From: a virus
IMG/VR virus record: IMGVR_UViG_3300010883_000064
Span: 1-46,303 of that record
Reading direction: 5' to 3' (one strand)
Length of the DNA: 46,303 bases
Part shown: positions 8,131 to 17,016 of the stretch, one piece after another
How the letters are laid out: each line of letters begins with the position of its first letter
Position numbering within the stretch: the first letter of the stretch is position 1
Notes under the pieces: model-generated
Database searches by the model: none
The model's input: the letters and a program-made list of their open reading frames with translations, nothing else
What the model was told of the DNA's origin: nothing
Made by a program: the position numbers and the translations under genes

Positions 8131-9354
8131 CTAAGTAAAATCATGCCACGTGCCATCGGCGGAAGCCCAGGTGTTTAGTTTTGTTTCGATTTCTGTGATC
8201 TTTTGCTCTGCTCCAGTCTTTCTTGATTCCCACCGGGCGCTAAAGGACATGTCTTTTCTTTCTTGACGCGTCGACCGCATTTGACCTAGCAAAGTCTTTG
8301 CTTTTGCAGCGGCGGCATCTTTGGCTGCTTGGGCGCCCAAGCCCTCCACTCGACCTTTTTCTGCAGCTTCTTCGAGTTCGGTGAGCGCGCTCCGGTTCCC
8401 AATGTTTTTAGCTTCGATATCGGAGAATTCCTTGGCGCGACTGAATTTCATGTAGGTTCCAGCACCATCGCCTGTATTGGGCTCCAGACCATATGGGCCG
8501 CCGGGGTTCTGGTGCCAGTTGCTATTATTCCAACCGCGAGGAACTTCATGTATAACATCAAACGATATCGAAACTTCGATAACTTTAGGTAGAATAAGAT
8601 TTTTGCCAGCTTCGATAACGCCGGCGTCTGATTTTTCCAAATTATGATTGATAGTTAAACTAGTAATAACGCCCAATTGTCCCATGGTCGCGCTGTTGTT
8701 GTTGCCTTGAGAAAGATTCTCAAATTGTCGACCTTGTGGGAGGTTCCAGTCATTGGTGCCTTTGGTGGCAGTTTCCCGGACCTCATTGTACAAAGCCCTT
8801 TGAGACTGTAGAAGATTCATAACCTTCATTCGAATTAATGGAGATTGAGAGATCGTTTGTGCGCTTCCGACACTAGTGTAGTTTGGATAAAGCATGTCAG
8901 ATAAAAACCCAACTTTATATAGATTTTCAAACGCTTCGCCTTCGGTGGCTGCGGGCATATTAAAATTTAGAGTAATCGATCGACCTGTATTTTTAAATGA
9001 ATAGATAGGATCTATTCTACCAAATACATGCTCAGTAGCCCAATCGCTCTTGTAGGTTTCATTAAAAGAAGTTATAAATGCTTTGCAGTAGATCGACTGC
9101 TGTGAGGGGACATGCAGAAAACTAATAATATTTCGACTGTGATTGGCATATGCATCAGACGCGTCGGCATACTGCGGTCTGTAGCCAACTGTTCTATTAT
9201 GTAGAGTTTGAGAGTCCACTGGGGCGCCTCCCGCTTCATCGAGAACATCAACGTTCTTAAGCTCGCCGACAGACTCGATTTTTTGATATTTTGTTGAACT
9301 AAAGTCTGTGCGAGGCTCCTGGGACAGCCAGCTGATATCAAGTTTTCTTGCCAT
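8131..9354 (-). CDS. tail tube/baseplate junction protein (putative)
   Basis: A 407-residue protein. Residues about 90-290 are beta-rich, with segments such as S-I-T-L-N-F-N-M-P, S-P-L-I-R-M-K-V, G-V-I-T-S-L-T-I and P-K-V-I-E-V-S-I-S-F-D-V. Paired strands of this kind are seen in tail-tube-fold proteins, including the baseplate tube-cap proteins gp48 and gp54 of T4. The C-terminal 100 residues are Ala-, Lys- and Glu-rich and probably helical. It sits directly after the tape measure and before gp53, the usual place for tube-initiation proteins. AAGGAG precedes the ATG. Assignment to gp48 or gp54 specifically cannot be made by eye. Confidence 0.55.
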   Translation of the reverse strand: MARKLDISWLSQEPRTDFSSTKYQKIESVGELKNVDVLDEAGGAPVDSQTLHNRTVGYRPQYADASDAYANHSRNIISFLHVPSQQSIYCKAFITSFNETYKSDWATEHVFGRIDPIYSFKNTGRSITLNFNMPAATEGEAFENLYKVGFLSDMLYPNYTSVGSAQTISQSPLIRMKVMNLLQSQRALYNEVRETATKGTNDWNLPQGRQFENLSQGNNNSATMGQLGVITSLTINHNLEKSDAGVIEAGKNLILPKVIEVSISFDVIHEVPRGWNNSNWHQNPGGPYGLEPNTGDGAGTYMKFSRAKEFSDIEAKNIGNRSALTELEEAAEKGRVEGLGAQAAKDAAAAKAKTLLGQMRSTRQERKDMSFSARWESRKTGAEQKITEIETKLNTWASADGTWHDFT

Positions 9355-9376
9355 TATTTATTCTCCTTTTTTATCA

Positions 9377-11995
9377 TCAACTTTCTCCATAGAGCATTTG
9401 TTTGCCCTCGTTGCCTTGAACCTCAATCACAGCATCCGCAAATTTCACTTTATCTAGTTTCAATTCTATGAGAATTGTGATTTTTCTGGATTTTTCGTTA
9501 ACAACGTTGCGGCGATCTATGGCGCCGGCGCCGCGTCCGCCGCGTCCGCCGGCGTCAGCTCTGAAGCCAGCCGATTCCGCGGCTTTAAGCGCTTTAGTCG
9601 AGGTGTTCAACAATGCTTTCATAGCCACAAGTTTTATGAGGTCTATTGAGTTAATACTTGTTGCAATATTCTTAAACGAAGTTTCAATTGGTCCCAATCC
9701 ATACTTGTCTATCTCTTTAACAGATCCGAGAATTTCACCGAGAGCAATTGCGGCGGGGCCCATTCTAATTGATGACTTTTCTAATTTCTCGAAAACTCTT
9801 CCTAAATTCCAAACACCCATTAGTGCCAACGGATTCCCCATCAGAGTAAGGGCTGCGGCTAAAGATATAATTGCCAACGAGAACATTCCCAAGAAACCTG
9901 CAAATATCCCGAATGCGGCGGCGCTTTCTGGATTTATAGCTTTGACTAGTTCTGCCATGCCCAGTGCCGCAATTCCAACACCGGCGCCCATTAAGAATAA
10001 AGCAGCTCCCAAAGCAAGAATAAGCGGATAACTCATAGCGATTGCCGGCGTTATTGTCAGTATCATATATGTAAAGCCCAGCATGACGGCGCCAAGTATC
10101 GTTAGAGCAACGCCTACTCCAATCATCTGGGCGATGTCTAAGAGAAAGAACGATTCAGCTAATTTTGAAACTCCCCAAGCAGCCAAGCCCAAGCCGGCCC
10201 CCATCATTAACACTGCCGCACCAACTGCTAAAATTACCGGCACTGATTTTGACATTGCTGCTAAATTTCTCAGTCCAGCACTGCCCATTAAATTGGCGGA
10301 AAGTGCGGCGCTTCTTTCAACAGCAGCTTTGGCTGATATGACGCCTGTGAGAAGTATAGTCAAAGTCTTATACGCAATCCAACCAGCGAGAAAGGCCGGC
10401 CAATGTGCGAGCATGTAGCCAATATATCCCATTACTGTCTTAATTGGGTCTATGAACCCCTTGACCGAAGTCTCAAGCTCTTTAAACGCGCCTCCATTTT
10501 TGAGAACCGCGTCTGCCCATTCATGAAATTTATCTAAAACTGGCAATAAAAGAGGCGTCAATTTGGCTATGATAGTTTGGAACTTTTCTTGTAGTGTTGC
10601 CATTTTTTGTTGTTTGTCTGCCATCTCCGCGTAATCTGCGGATGTTTTTCCTATTTCCCCGCCAAGAGTATTCATATCACCCGACATCATCATCGCCAAA
10701 TCGCTAACATCGCCCAAGCCCAAAGAATCGGCGTAAAACTTACGCTGATAGTATGACATGTCATCAAAAGATAAGCCGGCATTTAAGAGCGAATCACGAA
10801 GCATCTCAAAACGCTCTACCGGATCAGTGGCTGTCATCAGATCCATCGCATTTACAAAGTTTCCACCTAGAGCAGCGTTAAGTTTACCAGCTTGAGTGGC
10901 GGCGCCTTCAAACGTATCAAATTTGTCGGTCATTTGCAATAGCTTGCCCATTTCCAAGCCAGTGATCTTAGAAACTCTTGCCAAATCTTTAAAAGCCTTC
11001 TCTCCGTCTTTGCCTAATTTAGCCAAGGTGCCACCAAACTTAGCAAAATCAGAAGCTAGCTGTTTAGGGGGAACCCCCAAGTCAATCGCCGTAGCGGTCA
11101 GCTCTCTCATCGACTCGGCGGCCTCTCTGGGTCCTTGTCCCATTACCTTAGTAGCTAACTCCATCCCTTTCGCGGCATCGCCAATGGCAACTCCATATTT
11201 GCTCAGCAAAGTCACCGTATCGCCTATCTCTTCTCGCGCGGAAGCGCTGATCATCGTAAAAGTGCTCATGCCTGAATACAAGCCTTCCCACGCTGCGGAT
11301 GTTTCTTTTATGGTTGCAGTAAATTCTCTAGTTCGCGTATATGATTTAGCTACTTCATTTCCGAATTCGCGACTGGCGCCGGTTGTTCTTTGAAAAGAGG
11401 TTCTCATCCCATCAATTTCAAATATAAGACCAATTACATTATTAATGAAGCCGGTAATAATTCCGCCAGCCAAAGCACCAAGAAACGGTACTATGCCCTT
11501 TGCGCCGGCTTCTTTAAAGGTTTTGCCAATAGCTGCTATTTTTTTAACATTAAAAAGAGGATGTGTTTTATAAACAGACAGGCTGCCGGCGATGTTATCG
11601 TTCATGCTTTTGATTTGTTTAATTGCGTTTTCGCGCGCGGCATTTGCTTTCTTTAATGCGTCGAGGCGCTTTTCCTCTAATTTAACTTCGTCTCGGAGGT
11701 TCTCTAATTCCTCCTCGGTGAGCAGACCTCTTTTTATTGCTAGAGCGAGCCTCATCTTTGCGAGACGAATACCTTGTTCGTGCACCTGGATGCGCGTTCT
11801 TTCTGTCTGTTCCATGTCCCGGAGGCGAGCGAGATAGTCTTCGGCTTTATTTATATGTTCTTGTGTGATTGTTGTGGCGCCGGGTGGCGCAAAACCGCCG
11901 TCCGAGCCGGCTTCGCCGCCGGGAGCGCTAGCAAAACCGTCAAGAATCCCCTGTTTAACTGCGTTTTGTATTTCGTCTAATGAAAATTCAGCCAT
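9377..11995 (-). CDS. tail tape measure protein
   Basis: An 872-residue protein. Residues 40-150 are strongly charged coiled coil. One hydrophobic helix is near 167-190 and a long Ala/Gly-rich hydrophobic block with several membrane-type helices spans about 530-740. The middle (200-500) is helical, with A-A-E-S-M-R-E-L-like repeats. This is the usual composition of tape measures, which set tail length and pass into the cell envelope during ejection. By the general rule of about 0.15 nm per residue, the tail would be near 130 nm. It follows the gp26-like frame pair, the standard position for tail-assembly chaperones, and has its own CTATTTAT element at 12023-12030. The opposite strand is open over long stretches only because of its Ala/Gly codons. 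Confidence 0.88.
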   Translation of the reverse strand: MAEFSLDEIQNAVKQGILDGFASAPGGEAGSDGGFAPPGATTITQEHINKAEDYLARLRDMEQTERTRIQVHEQGIRLAKMRLALAIKRGLLTEEELENLRDEVKLEEKRLDALKKANAARENAIKQIKSMNDNIAGSLSVYKTHPLFNVKKIAAIGKTFKEAGAKGIVPFLGALAGGIITGFINNVIGLIFEIDGMRTSFQRTTGASREFGNEVAKSYTRTREFTATIKETSAAWEGLYSGMSTFTMISASAREEIGDTVTLLSKYGVAIGDAAKGMELATKVMGQGPREAAESMRELTATAIDLGVPPKQLASDFAKFGGTLAKLGKDGEKAFKDLARVSKITGLEMGKLLQMTDKFDTFEGAATQAGKLNAALGGNFVNAMDLMTATDPVERFEMLRDSLLNAGLSFDDMSYYQRKFYADSLGLGDVSDLAMMMSGDMNTLGGEIGKTSADYAEMADKQQKMATLQEKFQTIIAKLTPLLLPVLDKFHEWADAVLKNGGAFKELETSVKGFIDPIKTVMGYIGYMLAHWPAFLAGWIAYKTLTILLTGVISAKAAVERSAALSANLMGSAGLRNLAAMSKSVPVILAVGAAVLMMGAGLGLAAWGVSKLAESFFLLDIAQMIGVGVALTILGAVMLGFTYMILTITPAIAMSYPLILALGAALFLMGAGVGIAALGMAELVKAINPESAAAFGIFAGFLGMFSLAIISLAAALTLMGNPLALMGVWNLGRVFEKLEKSSIRMGPAAIALGEILGSVKEIDKYGLGPIETSFKNIATSINSIDLIKLVAMKALLNTSTKALKAAESAGFRADAGGRGGRGAGAIDRRNVVNEKSRKITILIELKLDKVKFADAVIEVQGNEGKQMLYGES

Positions 11996-12022
11996 GGATA
12001 ATAGATACCTTTAGTGCTAAAA

Positions 12023-12030
12023 ATAAATAG
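12023..12030 (-). promoter_or_regulatory. candidate late promoter element CTATTTAT
   Basis: Minus-strand ACTATTTATTTTT, 27 bases upstream of the tape measure ATG and 12 bases downstream of a strong terminator. The same octamer with A/T-rich flanks recurs upstream of four other structural genes or gene blocks. Position right after a terminator and right before a gene supports a promoter role. Confidence 0.5.
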
Positions 12031-12036
12031 TTTCAT

Positions 12037-12066
12037 AAAAAAAAAGCAAGACGCTCATCTTGCTTT
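12037..12066 (-). terminator. rho-independent terminator
   Basis: On the minus strand AAAGCAAGA and TCTTGCTTT (12058-12066 and 12043-12051) form a perfect 9-bp stem with a 6-base loop. A run of T follows directly. It overlaps the end of the frame at 12055-12327, and would end transcripts of the gp26-like pair before the tape measure gene. The candidate promoter at 12023-12030 then restarts transcription. Confidence 0.85.
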
Positions 12067-12327
12067 CTTAGTGGCGCCCTGTGGTATTCCCGGAGGGGGG
12101 CCGGGCTGGTTCTGAGGGGTTAGGACTTGTGAACTCGAAGAACCCGAGCCCTTAGAGGCATTCTCCATGGCATCTCTCTCTTCGTCTAGCTGTTTAACGA
12201 GCCTTAAGACAAACCACTTTCTTAATCCAACTGGCAAATTATAAGCCTCGCTAAAGCTCCAGCCGCCGGTATATTTTAAATAGAAGAATTGTTCGTATAC
12301 ATCTTCCATATATTCATCGGTCAGGCC
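12055..12327 (-). CDS. frameshift extension of tail-assembly/gp26-like protein
   Basis: This frame encodes 90 residues after the T7 run at 12328-12334: G-L-T-D-E-Y-M-E-D-V-Y, then W-S-F-S-E-A-Y-N-L-P-V, then a helical part and a Pro/Ser-rich tail. It has no credible start of its own. The only upstream initiator is a TTG at 12390 without a ribosome binding site, inside the coding region of the gp26-like gene, and the ATG at the M-E-D also lacks one. The frame is +1 (equal to -2) relative to the gp26-like gene. A slip on the T7 run (codons TTT TTT TGG) would give a 370-residue fusion. The location just before the tape measure is where many phages make a second tail-assembly chaperone by frameshifting. 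A homopolymer sequencing error is the alternative. Confidence 0.65.
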   Translation of the reverse strand, partial: GLTDEYMEDVYEQFFYLKYTGGWSFSEAYNLPVGLRKWFVLRLVKQLDEERDAMENASKGSGSSSSQVLTPQNQPGPPPGIPQGATKKAR

Positions 12328-13168
12328 AAAAAAAGTCCGCCGTAAGCGGAACCTCCATTTGCTCTTCGTGATCACAACTCTCACAAGCAAAATGCTGTGT
12401 TAAATCGATATCTGGAGCCACTTGTTTGTATACTAATCTAATGTGCCGAGCATCCATAGAGGGAAGGTTCTCGATAGTGTAATTAATCGCTTCGGAGGTG
12501 CTATTTCCATTAACAGAAACTAATGTACTTCTTAAATGCCTTGTTACGGCGCGCTCGTGTTGATTTTTGTTTTTTCGATCTGCCTCAACACCGGCAAGAA
12601 ATGATTTTTCTGATTTTCCGGTTAGCAAACAAAAAGTTGCACTTAATTGAGTTTTGGGCAATTGAGTAGTAAAAGTTCCGTTTTGATTATCAACGACCTC
12701 AAGCCCTTCCTCGGGATCCCCGTGATATATATTAGCACGATTTAAATCAAACCTATATTTTTGCACGTTAAGACAGCTTGGACAAGCAACCGATGTATCG
12801 TAATCACTGCCATATCCGGAAACTCTCGCCGCGATGATAATGGCATTTCTATCGCCAACCAACAAGTCCTCCGTGCTAATTCTTTTATCGGCAATTATGT
12901 TCAACAATACCCTGTCTAAAGCCACCCCTTTCTTAAGAAGGGTTCTAGAAGTCAATATGTCTTCTTCTTTGGCAGTCATCTGCCTAACCTCAATACTATC
13001 TTCTCCGCATAAAGGATGCCCTTCAGGATAAAATTTGCCTTGTGAAGGCAGTTCTACAAATTCAGTAGGCACCACAAATGAAAAACCGCCCCCATCATCG
13101 TGATGCGTCTGAGGAGGGGTGCTCGTATCAGGCTGCTGTGAACCTACACGATTCTTATTTCTTGACAA
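12314..13168 (-). CDS. 26: T4 gp26/gp51-type baseplate or tail-assembly protein
   Basis: A 284-residue protein of the T4 baseplate-protein family to which gp26 belongs. The signs are L-P-S-Q-G-K-F-Y-P at 40-48, a helical M-T-A-K-E-E-D region, and two Cys pairs, C-P-S-C (129-132) and C-E-S-C (262-265), that could bind zinc. The start is a TTG at 13168, supported by AGAGGTG about 5 bases upstream; no better ATG exists before the conserved region. It lies between the tail tube and the tape measure and ends within a T7 run that may direct ribosomes into the frame at 12055-12327. Two proteins, 284 and about 370 residues, could therefore be made. A tail-assembly chaperone role is inferred from position. 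Confidence 0.7.
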   Translation of the reverse strand: MSRNKNRVGSQQPDTSTPPQTHHDDGGGFSFVVPTEFVELPSQGKFYPEGHPLCGEDSIEVRQMTAKEEDILTSRTLLKKGVALDRVLLNIIADKRISTEDLLVGDRNAIIIAARVSGYGSDYDTSVACPSCLNVQKYRFDLNRANIYHGDPEEGLEVVDNQNGTFTTQLPKTQLSATFCLLTGKSEKSFLAGVEADRKNKNQHERAVTRHLRSTLVSVNGNSTSEAINYTIENLPSMDARHIRLVYKQVAPDIDLTQHFACESCDHEEQMEVPLTADFFWPDR

Positions 13169-13185
13169 TATACACCTCTTATTGT

Positions 13186-13214
13186 ATTATACTATAATTT
13201 TAGCTTTCTGTTAA
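13186..13214 (-). promoter_or_regulatory. sigma70-like promoter candidate
   Basis: Minus-strand TTAACA (13209-13214), 17 bases, then TATAAT (13186-13191). The -10 box is perfect and the -35 box matches five of six bases. It overlaps the end of the tail tube gene and faces the gp26-like gene. A start site about 7 bases on would fall at the ribosome binding site, leaving almost no leader, which weakens the case. Confidence 0.35.
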
Positions 13215-13796
13215 GCCAAAAAACTCTGTTCCGCCGGATCCCGCAACAGCGACCGAAGGCTTGGCTGTTTCCACGCGGGCCCAATCGTAGCGTAATCCGA
13301 TTGTCATTTCGATAATGTCTTCGCTACCATATTCTAAATCGCCGTATTTAACTTCAGTGATAAAAGCGTTCCACAAGGTCCATGTTTCAAGCTCTGCGCC
13401 CATGGAATCAAGCTGTGCGATTGTCACGGTGCCTAACGCGGTAGTTGCTTTTGCTTTTGAAATTGTCGAAAGAACGTTTGGATTAGCAGGAGGAGAATAA
13501 CCTGCCTGTGTGATTATATCTGAAAGAGTTGCTGTCATGTCGGGATCAACAGGATCAACCAAAGTAATAGAAATTTCTTCCCAACTTATTGATCCGGGAT
13601 AATGAAACTTGTGATTTAAATAAGTATGTTCGGTAGTTTCAACCTTAAAAGAAGGCTTTGCTGCTGTTTTAGCATACCAAAGAAGGGCGCCACCTTGTGC
13701 AGCTTGGATCCCCTGAAATGATACTATAAATCTAAATTTTCTTTTGGGATCGTTAAGTGTTTTGTCTTCACCAAAATTTGTTGACCAGAATGGCAT
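13200..13796 (-). CDS. 19: tail tube protein, gp19-like
   Basis: A 198-residue protein close in size to T4 gp19 (163 residues). It opens with P-F-W-S-T-N-F, a start common in T4-like tube proteins. It then has the alternating beta segments of the tube fold: K-F-R-F-I-V-S-F, K-P-S-F-K-V-E-T, and W-E-E-I-S-I-T-L-V-D near the middle. The last 20 residues are Gly- and Ala-rich. It follows the sheath gene, the conserved order gp18-gp19. AGGAG lies upstream of the ATG. Hexamers of this protein form the inner tube through which DNA passes. Confidence 0.88.
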   Translation of the reverse strand: MPFWSTNFGEDKTLNDPKRKFRFIVSFQGIQAAQGGALLWYAKTAAKPSFKVETTEHTYLNHKFHYPGSISWEEISITLVDPVDPDMTATLSDIITQAGYSPPANPNVLSTISKAKATTALGTVTIAQLDSMGAELETWTLWNAFITEVKYGDLEYGSEDIIEMTIGLRYDWARVETAKPSVAVAGSGGTEFFGLTES

Positions 13797-13863
13797 AATT
13801 TGAAACTCCTCTTATATGTTTTAATTAGTGTTGCGGGACAAAAAAGCTTGTCCCTTGTTTTTT

Positions 13864-16800
13864 TTAATCATCAAAAGAAGCACCCGTGGACGCAATCACA
13901 AAGTCAATGGCAATATATTCAATCGCTCTAGCTGGCTTGATCATGATCTTTGCATACAAAATATTTTGATCAATTAAATCTGGGGTTGTAGTTGATTCAT
14001 CAAGAATTAACTTATAATCAGTAATACCAAACTTTGTCTGAACATTGGCTAAGAATGGTTCCACTAAACCCTTAAATCGACCCCATGTTGCTTGAACGTT
14101 TTGCTCAAACAAAACCTGCGTGGAAAGAATGGAAATCTGCTTCTTCATGAAAATAACCAGTCTTCTCACATTAATTCTATCAAGAGCAGACTGTCTCTCC
14201 TGCAATGTTTTTTGTCCGAAAACGACTATTCCTGTAGATGGAAAAGATGCAATTGGATTAATGTTATATTCGTAAAGAGTGTCTCTTTGTTTAGATGTTA
14301 ATCTCTCTGTAATTCCAGTAACTGGGATCCCAGCGGCGCCCTCAGTTAAGCCGCCGCGATTAAAGCCTGCGGGAGCAAACCAAACTTCAGAAACAGCCTG
14401 AGAGCTTGCCATGACACCCAGCATAGCGACACTGGGGGGCACCCACAATAACCTACCATTAGCTGCATCTCTAGTTTGCACCCATGGATAGAATGTACAA
14501 CCATAGCTTGAATCAATTCTTCTATCTCGAAGTGCAGTAGAAGCCGCTTGCGGAGTTGTTCCAATTCTATCTGCCTTGGCGCTCTTATATATTTCATGAG
14601 ACGGAAGATAGACACTAGCAAGATCGATGACGGCGATCGCATCTGCGCGATCTTCACAAACATCTATCATATGTCCCGTGAGGGCATCTTTGGTGAGACC
14701 AGGAGCAGTCATGACGTTCATATCCAACAGCTCAGGATCTGCTAAGGTATCAATTGCGCGGAGCCACGAATAATATGCATAATTCGTTGTTTCTGTGGGA
14801 GAAGAGCCCATTCCTTCGTTATAGTAAGGATCTGGCGCCTTGATGTCTTCGCCATCGTGTCCTCCGAAAAATGGAACAACGAAGCTATCGATTCCGGCAT
14901 CCAACAACGTTGTGTAGCTTCCGCCGGCGGAAACAGATGTTTCGCGGGCACGAGAGCCAGAGGCATAATAATAGCCATTAGTAATGCTTGAGTCTAGCTG
15001 AACATCATCCATAGTAAAAACATACGAATATGGATCGATTCCGGCGCCCCATGTTGTCGTTGAGGGATCGTCACCGATATCGGCATATAGCCTTCTGTGG
15101 AAATCTTCAATTCCCAAGCGCCCACCTCTTGTGCTGGTCTGCGTCCTTCTGCTAGCTATACCGAACGATGCCTTTGTAACATCAGACATTCCGCCGTCAG
15201 AAGCCGAAACTCTGAGCGGAGCATATGGCATCTCTATTGAAGCTGTTAAAGTCCATGGAGCGGCTACATCGCCGGCGAGCATCGACTTAGCGCCGAAAAG
15301 AATAGCACCAGAAACTGCAAGATCGGCGTGCACGTTAACACCGCCGGAAATAAAGGCTTGATTGAAGGCAACTCGACCGGAGCCGGCAGCGGTACCGCGG
15401 GTAAATCCGTCAGTGACATAGTAAGCTTTCGCAGAATCACCATCAACGATATCCGCTCCGTCAGCTTCCCAAAGCGTTGTCACGCGGTTCATTCCGGAGA
15501 ATCGTGGAGGACCAAAATATCCGAATGGAAGAAGCTTGGCATTTGTGGCGCCGGCGGCAACATCAGTGTTCATGTCTACATAAACATATTTAGAATTATT
15601 GTTATATTCGCCATAACTTTTAAGGCGCCTAGCGGTGGTATCCCATTTCGTGAATTTATCACCAATTCTGCGCTCAACGTAGTTTACAGAAGTCGGATCT
15701 AAAGTTAAATTATCGAACCTCTCTAAAACAATTGGATTTGCATCAGTATCGGAAATCTTTCTGATAACCACCGAAAATGTTCCGTAATCATCTGTTAAAG
15801 ATGTCGACTGGCGAATTTTTTCAACACCCACTTTGCAGTTCTTGTGGAGCCACTCGCCATGTCCACGACCCTTAAGTCGGAAAAGCTTCTGCTTATTAAA
15901 AGGAACATTGTTCGCGGCAGTGCCAAGATCCTGTCCGATAAACCATCCTGCAATAGCATCTTGAAATCCTGCAGGGGATCCCACTGATTGCATTTTAGCG
16001 GGACCATTGCCGAAAGAACTACTGCCAAGAGGCAAAATGAAACCTAGCTTCGCTTGTGTATCAAGAGAGTTCCATCTTAAATATTGCTCAAATGTTTCTC
16101 CAAGCCAATAACTCTCATAAGAGGCAGACGGATAAAAAGCCCCCTTTGTAGAAGCTAACTGAGGATTTGTGTTAAACTTGCTTCTGATGAAGGTGTCGGC
16201 GCTGTCATCAAATCCAAATGTGATATTCTCTGTTGATTCCGCAGAACTAAGCGCATCTTGCGTAATAAGCGAGACTGTGAACAGGTTATTGGAATCTGTT
16301 GCGATAACGGCTCCGTAAGAAGCTGTAGCGTTAATTCCCAAATCGCCACCAGTGCCTGCGGGGGCTGTTGTGGTCACACCGGTTCCGCCGTAAAGCGCTC
16401 CACTTAATTTTACGTGAGAGCCAGAGTCAACATACCAAACAGCCGCTAAGCTAGCTGTTCCCAAAAGAGCAGTAGCTGTCGAACTAGACGCAATAACGAA
16501 AAGACCATAAGCGCCTCCATTATCCGAAGTACACGAAGCCGGTGTTTTTGTTGTTACCCAACCAGAATATCCTGAAGTCGCATCAGGACTTTGAGTACCT
16601 AACAATCGAATGTAGGTAAGAGGAGCAACATTCGAAGCCAAAAATGCTTTTGCGGCGTAAGTTCCATACATGGGAGCCTGATAGTTACCATAGCGGTATA
16701 CATCTCCGCCTCCATTACCAGGAACGGTACCGCCGAATACTTCTACAAACTCTTCGTAAGACTGTACTTTAATCGGTGTTAAAGCCATTCCTTGGGGCGC

Positions 16801-16911
16801 CCGACCTATTACTACGGGCCCGATAGCGTCTGCAGTCTTGGGGATAAATGAGTTATCAATCTCATTAATAAACACTCCAGGAGATACAAATTTAAAACTT
16901 TGTGCTGACAT
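13864..16911 (-). CDS. 18: tail sheath protein, gp18-like
   Basis: A 1015-residue protein. The N terminus has the sheath signature S-P-G-V-F-I-N-E-I-D (10-19), and the C-terminal quarter keeps the conserved sheath core. That core includes P-W-V-Q-T-R-D, P-P-S-V-A-M-L-G, L-Y-E-Y-N-I-N-P-I-A and the terminal Y-I-A-I-D-F-V-I-A. T4 gp18 has 659 residues, so the middle 350 or so residues (rich in Gly, Ser, Thr) are probably surface domains inserted in the core. AGAGG lies upstream of the ATG. It sits between the gp15-like and gp19-like genes as in T4-like phages. Contraction of this sheath drives the tube through the cell envelope. Confidence 0.92.
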   Translation of the reverse strand: MSAQSFKFVSPGVFINEIDNSFIPKTADAIGPVVIGRAPQGMALTPIKVQSYEEFVEVFGGTVPGNGGGDVYRYGNYQAPMYGTYAAKAFLASNVAPLTYIRLLGTQSPDATSGYSGWVTTKTPASCTSDNGGAYGLFVIASSSTATALLGTASLAAVWYVDSGSHVKLSGALYGGTGVTTTAPAGTGGDLGINATASYGAVIATDSNNLFTVSLITQDALSSAESTENITFGFDDSADTFIRSKFNTNPQLASTKGAFYPSASYESYWLGETFEQYLRWNSLDTQAKLGFILPLGSSSFGNGPAKMQSVGSPAGFQDAIAGWFIGQDLGTAANNVPFNKQKLFRLKGRGHGEWLHKNCKVGVEKIRQSTSLTDDYGTFSVVIRKISDTDANPIVLERFDNLTLDPTSVNYVERRIGDKFTKWDTTARRLKSYGEYNNNSKYVYVDMNTDVAAGATNAKLLPFGYFGPPRFSGMNRVTTLWEADGADIVDGDSAKAYYVTDGFTRGTAAGSGRVAFNQAFISGGVNVHADLAVSGAILFGAKSMLAGDVAAPWTLTASIEMPYAPLRVSASDGGMSDVTKASFGIASRRTQTSTRGGRLGIEDFHRRLYADIGDDPSTTTWGAGIDPYSYVFTMDDVQLDSSITNGYYYASGSRARETSVSAGGSYTTLLDAGIDSFVVPFFGGHDGEDIKAPDPYYNEGMGSSPTETTNYAYYSWLRAIDTLADPELLDMNVMTAPGLTKDALTGHMIDVCEDRADAIAVIDLASVYLPSHEIYKSAKADRIGTTPQAASTALRDRRIDSSYGCTFYPWVQTRDAANGRLLWVPPSVAMLGVMASSQAVSEVWFAPAGFNRGGLTEGAAGIPVTGITERLTSKQRDTLYEYNINPIASFPSTGIVVFGQKTLQERQSALDRINVRRLVIFMKKQISILSTQVLFEQNVQATWGRFKGLVEPFLANVQTKFGITDYKLILDESTTTPDLIDQNILYAKIMIKPARAIEYIAIDFVIASTGASFDD

Positions 16912-16959
16912 ATTGTTTTCCTCTTATTAAAATTCACGCAAATGATGCTGCAATCATAA

Positions 16960-16968
16960 ATTAAATAG
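16960..16968 (-). promoter_or_regulatory. weak late-promoter-like element
   Basis: Minus-strand TACTATTTAATTTATG shares ACTATTTA with the element found upstream of other structural genes but departs from it after seven bases. It lies 48 bases before the sheath ATG, within the 105-base gap between the gp15-like and sheath genes. Sheath is needed in large amounts, so a promoter here is reasonable, but the match is imperfect. Confidence 0.25.
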
Positions 16969-17016
16969 TATTTTGAGTCTCAAAAAGCTGTTCAGGAACT
17001 ATAAAAAACCTATCTT

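Follow-up and report, generated by a model that had tools for sequence, protein, structure and literature searches.

What is the function of the 90-residue reading frame that follows the putative tail assembly chaperone gene of this virus in a different register? The window, which is the whole viral record of 46,303 bases, carries T4-type head and tail genes, including those for the major head protein (phrog_138), the portal (phrog_213) and the sheath (phrog_23). A sequence-only reading had suggested that a gp26-like gene of this virus is joined to the next frame by a programmed frameshift on a run of seven T residues. From comparison with homologous loci, it is very probable that this bacterial virus, a relative of phage T4, makes a short and a long tail assembly chaperone by a +1 ribosomal slip near the end of one gene.

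The probable chaperone gene and its second frame

The locus is organized on the minus strand as follows.

13200..13796, minus strand: tail tube gene, the upstream neighbour (phrog_4542, E 6.8e-26)
13173..13179, minus strand: Shine-Dalgarno-like AGAGGTG, 5' of the TTG start
12314..13168, minus strand: 0-frame gene of a short tail assembly chaperone of the PF12322 (T4 gp26/gp51) type; 284 aa, TTG start; PF12322 E 2.3e-15, phrog_150 E 1.1e-15; AlphaFold pLDDT 88
12328..12334, minus strand: T7 slip site in GAC TTT TTT TGG, where a P-site UUU is proposed to re-pair +1 on UUU; invariant in 80/80 loci of the window's clade (clade A)
12055..12327, minus strand: +1-frame extension of 90 residues, predicted to be helical and distantly DUF6760-like; its position matches the C-terminal extension of T4 gp51
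12055..13168, minus strand: predicted frameshift product of 370 aa, with the junction ...PLTADFFGLTDEYMED...
9377..11995, minus strand: tape measure gene, the downstream neighbour, 872 aa (phrog_167, E 4.7e-06)

The 284-residue protein matches PF12322 over residues 38-281 with 57.3 bits against a gathering cut-off of 24.5, which upholds its gp26-like identity. The gene sits between the tail tube and tape measure genes, as originally read, given that matches to phrog_4542 and phrog_167 flank it, and the order of tail tube, PF12322 gene, small frame and tape measure also occurs in named phages. The TTG start codon (13166-13168, minus strand) is invariant across the 80 loci of the clade, ATG being the usual choice. 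The chaperone (12317-13168, minus strand) contains two CxxC pairs (ACPSC and ACESC) with a zinc-ribbon-like look; the clade keeps the second pair without exception, but several distant relatives lack it. The neighbouring tail sheath gene (13864-16911, minus strand) encodes an unusually long protein of 1015 aa. No viral tRNAs were found in the window, and no known RNA families at positions 9000-17000.

The 3' end of the gene reads GAC TTT TTT TGG CCT GAC CGA TGA. The frame that is entered after the run by a +1 or -2 shift extends over 12058-12327 with its stop codon at 12055-12057, and its protein begins GLTDEYMEDVYEQ... A -1 shift in the window leads to a stop after two codons (TTG GCC TGA). 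The T7 run, the gene ending, the 284-residue product and the 90-residue next frame are all as first described, and the computed +1 fusion of 370 aa agrees with the anticipated product of about 370 residues.

T4 gp26 and gp51 are full-length members of PF12322 (215.6 and 177.5 bits, respectively), and gp51 carries 48 C-terminal residues that gp26 lacks. The C-terminal stretch of gp51 aligns weakly with the second domain, near noise (0.5 bits), and second domains match C-terminal positions 70-119 of the 121 positions in phrog_634, the gp51 family profile, with E values of 0.01 to 0.14. The Pfam family PF20546 (DUF6760) reaches 16.6 bits against the second frame, below the gathering cut-off of 27; DUF6760 matches at E values up to 0.1 were obtained for 24 of 51 relatives, the best at 0.00079. 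The short-form model (pLDDT 88) has the HK97 tail assembly chaperone 2ob9 as its top PDB fold match, a weak one (E 0.78, probability 0.51). The extension, modelled apart from the short form, is predicted to be helical; on its own, it matched no PDB fold, and a tblastn search of the phage collection gave nothing. Gene order, the family shared with T4 gp26/gp51 and the best, albeit weak, PDB fold match support a putative role in tail assembly as a chaperone. Given that the additional C-terminal stretch of gp51 lies where the second domain does, T4 seems to hold in two genes what this virus would make by frameshift.

Conservation and selection at the proposed slip site

Is the arrangement peculiar to this virus? 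The close relatives comprise 80 IMG/VR loci with 59-87% amino acid identity, and a few of their contigs end inside the second frame. All 80 have retained the T7 run, the relation between the two frames and the protein of the second frame, and GAC TTT TTT TGG is identical throughout, so that the T-run and both frames prove to be conserved in the homologues, the comparison that the sequence-only reading had called for. Distant queries, namely Flavobacterium phages immuto, Microcystis phage Mel-JY01, an uncultured large phage and Bacillus phage SP-15, added about 180 further loci; the SP-15 query matched only itself among viral contigs. An HMM of the second domain found it in 264 of the 264 loci analysed, spread over several distant clades, and in the +1 frame in 260. 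In 12 further loci from MAG contigs, the second domain likewise lies in the +1 frame. One record (L273; CP070664.1, 2763407-2770264), titled as a 2.85 Mb WOR-3 MAG chromosome, has the same slip site in a chaperone locus of the T4 type and is either an integrated virus or mis-binned sequence. In the Mel-JY01, immuto and SP-15 records, the second frame is annotated as a separate hypothetical gene, and in SP-15 and immuto the annotated ORF is truncated, starting well inside the frame.

Reduction at 90% identity left 151 representatives, 147 of them with the +1 frame. Their sites are TTT TTT TGG in most cases, and otherwise TTT CTT TGG, CTT TTT TGG, TTC TTT TGG, TTT CTA TGG or a few of the UUU_C type. 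Among the 264 loci, there is no relative with one fused gene and a T6 run, which had been named as a sign of sequencing error. A second refuting case, a relative whose second frame has a start of its own, was encountered in no more than three distant loci (L260, L265 and L088), where the domain lies in the other frame with its own ATG adjoining the stop codon; the site of the window's clade is invariant. These three loci indicate that in some lineages the second domain is expressed as a separate gene, and fusion is therefore not required in every lineage; a further locus, L089, is ambiguous.

The conservation of the site extends to the choice of codons. Among 48 representatives of the window's clade, codons 278-280 (GAC TTT TTT) never vary, and a single codon each encodes Pro282 and Asp283 wherever these residues are present. 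Outside the last 12 codons, only 2 of 101 conserved degenerate codons are the same in every sequence, and TTTTTTT occurs only three times in 115,895 nt of remaining ORF sequence, so that the site stands out from chance. The invariance of CCT GAC arises because the +1 frame codes for Leu-Thr there. The invariance of TTT TTT, however, is unexplained by +1-frame coding and marks the slip site. Past the stop codon, the second frame stays free of stops, and 72% of its codon differences are synonymous; the corresponding values for the other frames are 12% and 6%. This pattern of substitution points to selection on the protein that the second frame encodes, in keeping with the early impression of conserved content.

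Probable direction and mechanism of the proposed shift

In which direction would the ribosome slip? The T7 run of the window permits a -2 shift as well as a +1 shift, and the choice had initially been left open. Every one of the 147 representatives has, at one or both of the two codons, a triplet able to re-pair one base forward (UUU_U, CUU_U or UUU_C), as compared with 35% of FF, FL or LF dipeptides elsewhere. A -2 shift of the kind used by phage Mu, which would yield a product one residue longer (ADFFFGLT), is known from tail genes (PMC5009743), and the window, like 122 of 147 representatives, would let UUU move back by two bases and pair again. However, the remaining 25 (with TTT CTT TGG, TTC TTT TGG, CTA or UUU_C sites) do not allow re-pairing two bases back and nevertheless keep the +1-frame arrangement, so that a -2 shift is improbable. 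The comparison thus favours +1 over -2 as the direction of the shift. The two directions predict different Glu-C junction peptides, VPLTADFFGLTDE for +1 and VPLTADFFFGLTDE for -2.

Two other explanations each seem very unlikely. RNA polymerase slippage on T7, which would leave a fraction of the mRNAs one U short, is suggested by the homopolymer of seven in the window's clade. Bacterial transcriptional slippage usually requires longer runs, and relatives with TTTCTTTGG or TTCTTTTGG, whose T runs are at most four, keep the frame relation, which argues against a transcriptional origin. Alternatively, the second frame could be an independent gene reached by re-initiation or an internal start. The separate ORF with its own ATG in L260, L265 and L088 fits this explanation, as does an ATG in the window that lies 7 nt past the start of the stop codon (GLTDEYM). 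The second frame had been described as devoid of a start codon and ribosome binding site; the ATG corrects the former, and the latter stands because the ATG is without a Shine-Dalgarno sequence. This ATG is not a conserved start, being replaced by a non-Met codon in 7 of 45 clade representatives. Moreover, the +1 frame of 43 loci offers no ATG, GTG or TTG ahead of the domain, and an independent gene leaves the conservation of the T-run unexplained. A sequencing or assembly error that splits one continuous gene was also considered, given that homopolymers are error-prone, and was rejected as practically negligible in probability: the same T7 occurs in 80 independent contigs, and relatives show the same frame relation at non-homopolymer sites.

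In the +1 mechanism that we propose, most ribosomes would terminate at TGA and release the 284-aa short form. In a fraction of ribosomes, the peptidyl-tRNA-Phe on UUU would slip +1 on the U-run and re-pair with the overlapping UUU before UGG is read, and these ribosomes would continue in the +1 frame to produce the 370-aa long form with its helical C-terminal extension. If lambda gpG/gpGT is taken as the model (PMC5009743), the task of the short form would be to coat the tape measure protein and that of the extension to bring in tail tube subunits. The slippage itself, its efficiency and the chaperone function are what we infer from the conserved arrangement.

What could stimulate the slip? 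One candidate lies upstream.

12331..12356, minus strand: clade-specific 5' element GGAGGU-N-CCGC-UNNNN-GCGG-ACUUUU, a possible hairpin with a Shine-Dalgarno-like arm that overlaps the slip site

In the window's clade, TGGAGGTNCCGCTNNNNGCGGACTTTTTTTGGC is almost invariant, and the fold of the element has a z of about -4.3 relative to column shuffles. Wobble bases are fixed in the stem, whereas they vary freely in the bulge or loop. No covariation was detected in the element, the stem of which hardly varies. A locus with 49% identity (L272) retains the element apart from a single change, which still permits a U.G pair; the element is absent from the other clades examined. Because the stem contains the slip site, a ribosome positioned at that site must have disrupted the hairpin. 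The element may act as a Shine-Dalgarno-like pause, as a roadblock or in some other way. Its GGAGGT lies about 17-20 nt upstream and is conserved in the window's clade only, and a Shine-Dalgarno sequence 3 nt upstream, in the style of release factor 2, is absent. Downstream of the site, no stimulatory RNA structure turned up in the clade of the window (z about 0) or in any other clade examined.

Relation to known chaperone and frameshift systems

Tail-chaperone frameshifting, +1 included, is already known. According to a review (PMC5009743), frameshifting in tail genes is a widely conserved feature of long-tailed phages, with T4 as the exception. T4 gp26/gp51 and the proteins of this virus belong to the same Pfam family, and in both cases a short protein is paired with a longer one that is extended C-terminally at the same place; however, T4 uses two genes that lie apart, whereas here one gene and a predicted +1 frameshift would suffice. 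The lambda G/GT pair is likewise located just before the tape measure gene, with a short frame overlap and a short and an extended product. Unlike the shift proposed here, that of lambda is -1, and the likeness drawn here is one of arrangement.

With respect to the slip itself, the closest counterpart is the release factor 2 gene (prfB), in which CUU_U is the conserved bacterial +1 site, replaced by UUU_U in a few species, and P-site re-pairing is also +1 (PMC5009743). The site of the window differs in that the sense codon UGG follows instead of a stop codon, in that the Shine-Dalgarno sequence 3 nt upstream is lacking, and in that it is not known as autoregulatory. The HSTV-2 tail genes and the tail shaft and capsid genes of Listeria phage PSA likewise employ +1 for a second tail-related product (PMC5009743). 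However, PSA slips on CCC to make structural products, and HSTV-2 is an archaeal myovirus, compared here by its +1 shift. In Vandenendeviridae (phage Adele, PMC12846349), a U-rich site also lies near the end of the chaperone gene, but the shift is -1 at GTTTTT and the phage families are different.

How much of this has been seen before? A passage of PMC12846349 that cites Vladimirov et al. 2022 mentions poly-T signals in T4-like chaperone genes, so that part of the present observation may have been noticed before. According to a passage of PMC10885494 citing the same work, some T4-like phages encode the short and the longer chaperone in separate genes in place of a frameshift, and the title of Vladimirov et al. 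2022 refers to T4-type chaperones made by another mechanism. Our search, with Vladimirov et al. 2022 lying beyond it, found no report that members of the T4 gp26/gp51 family from many environmental viruses share a conserved +1 site. We raise, as a tentative idea that is less likely to be right than wrong, that frameshift-made short and long chaperones preceded separate genes in the T4-type tail lineage, that gp26/gp51 arose by duplication and that the hairpin of the window's clade is a new kind of +1 stimulator.

Since the second frame is missed or annotated separately in public records, the long chaperone would be missing from many viral proteomes. Viruses with the T4 chaperone family carry a conserved +1 site, although T4 is counted as the exception to frameshifting. 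This finding would link T4 gp26/gp51 to the logic of lambda G/GT and make their role as chaperones directly testable.
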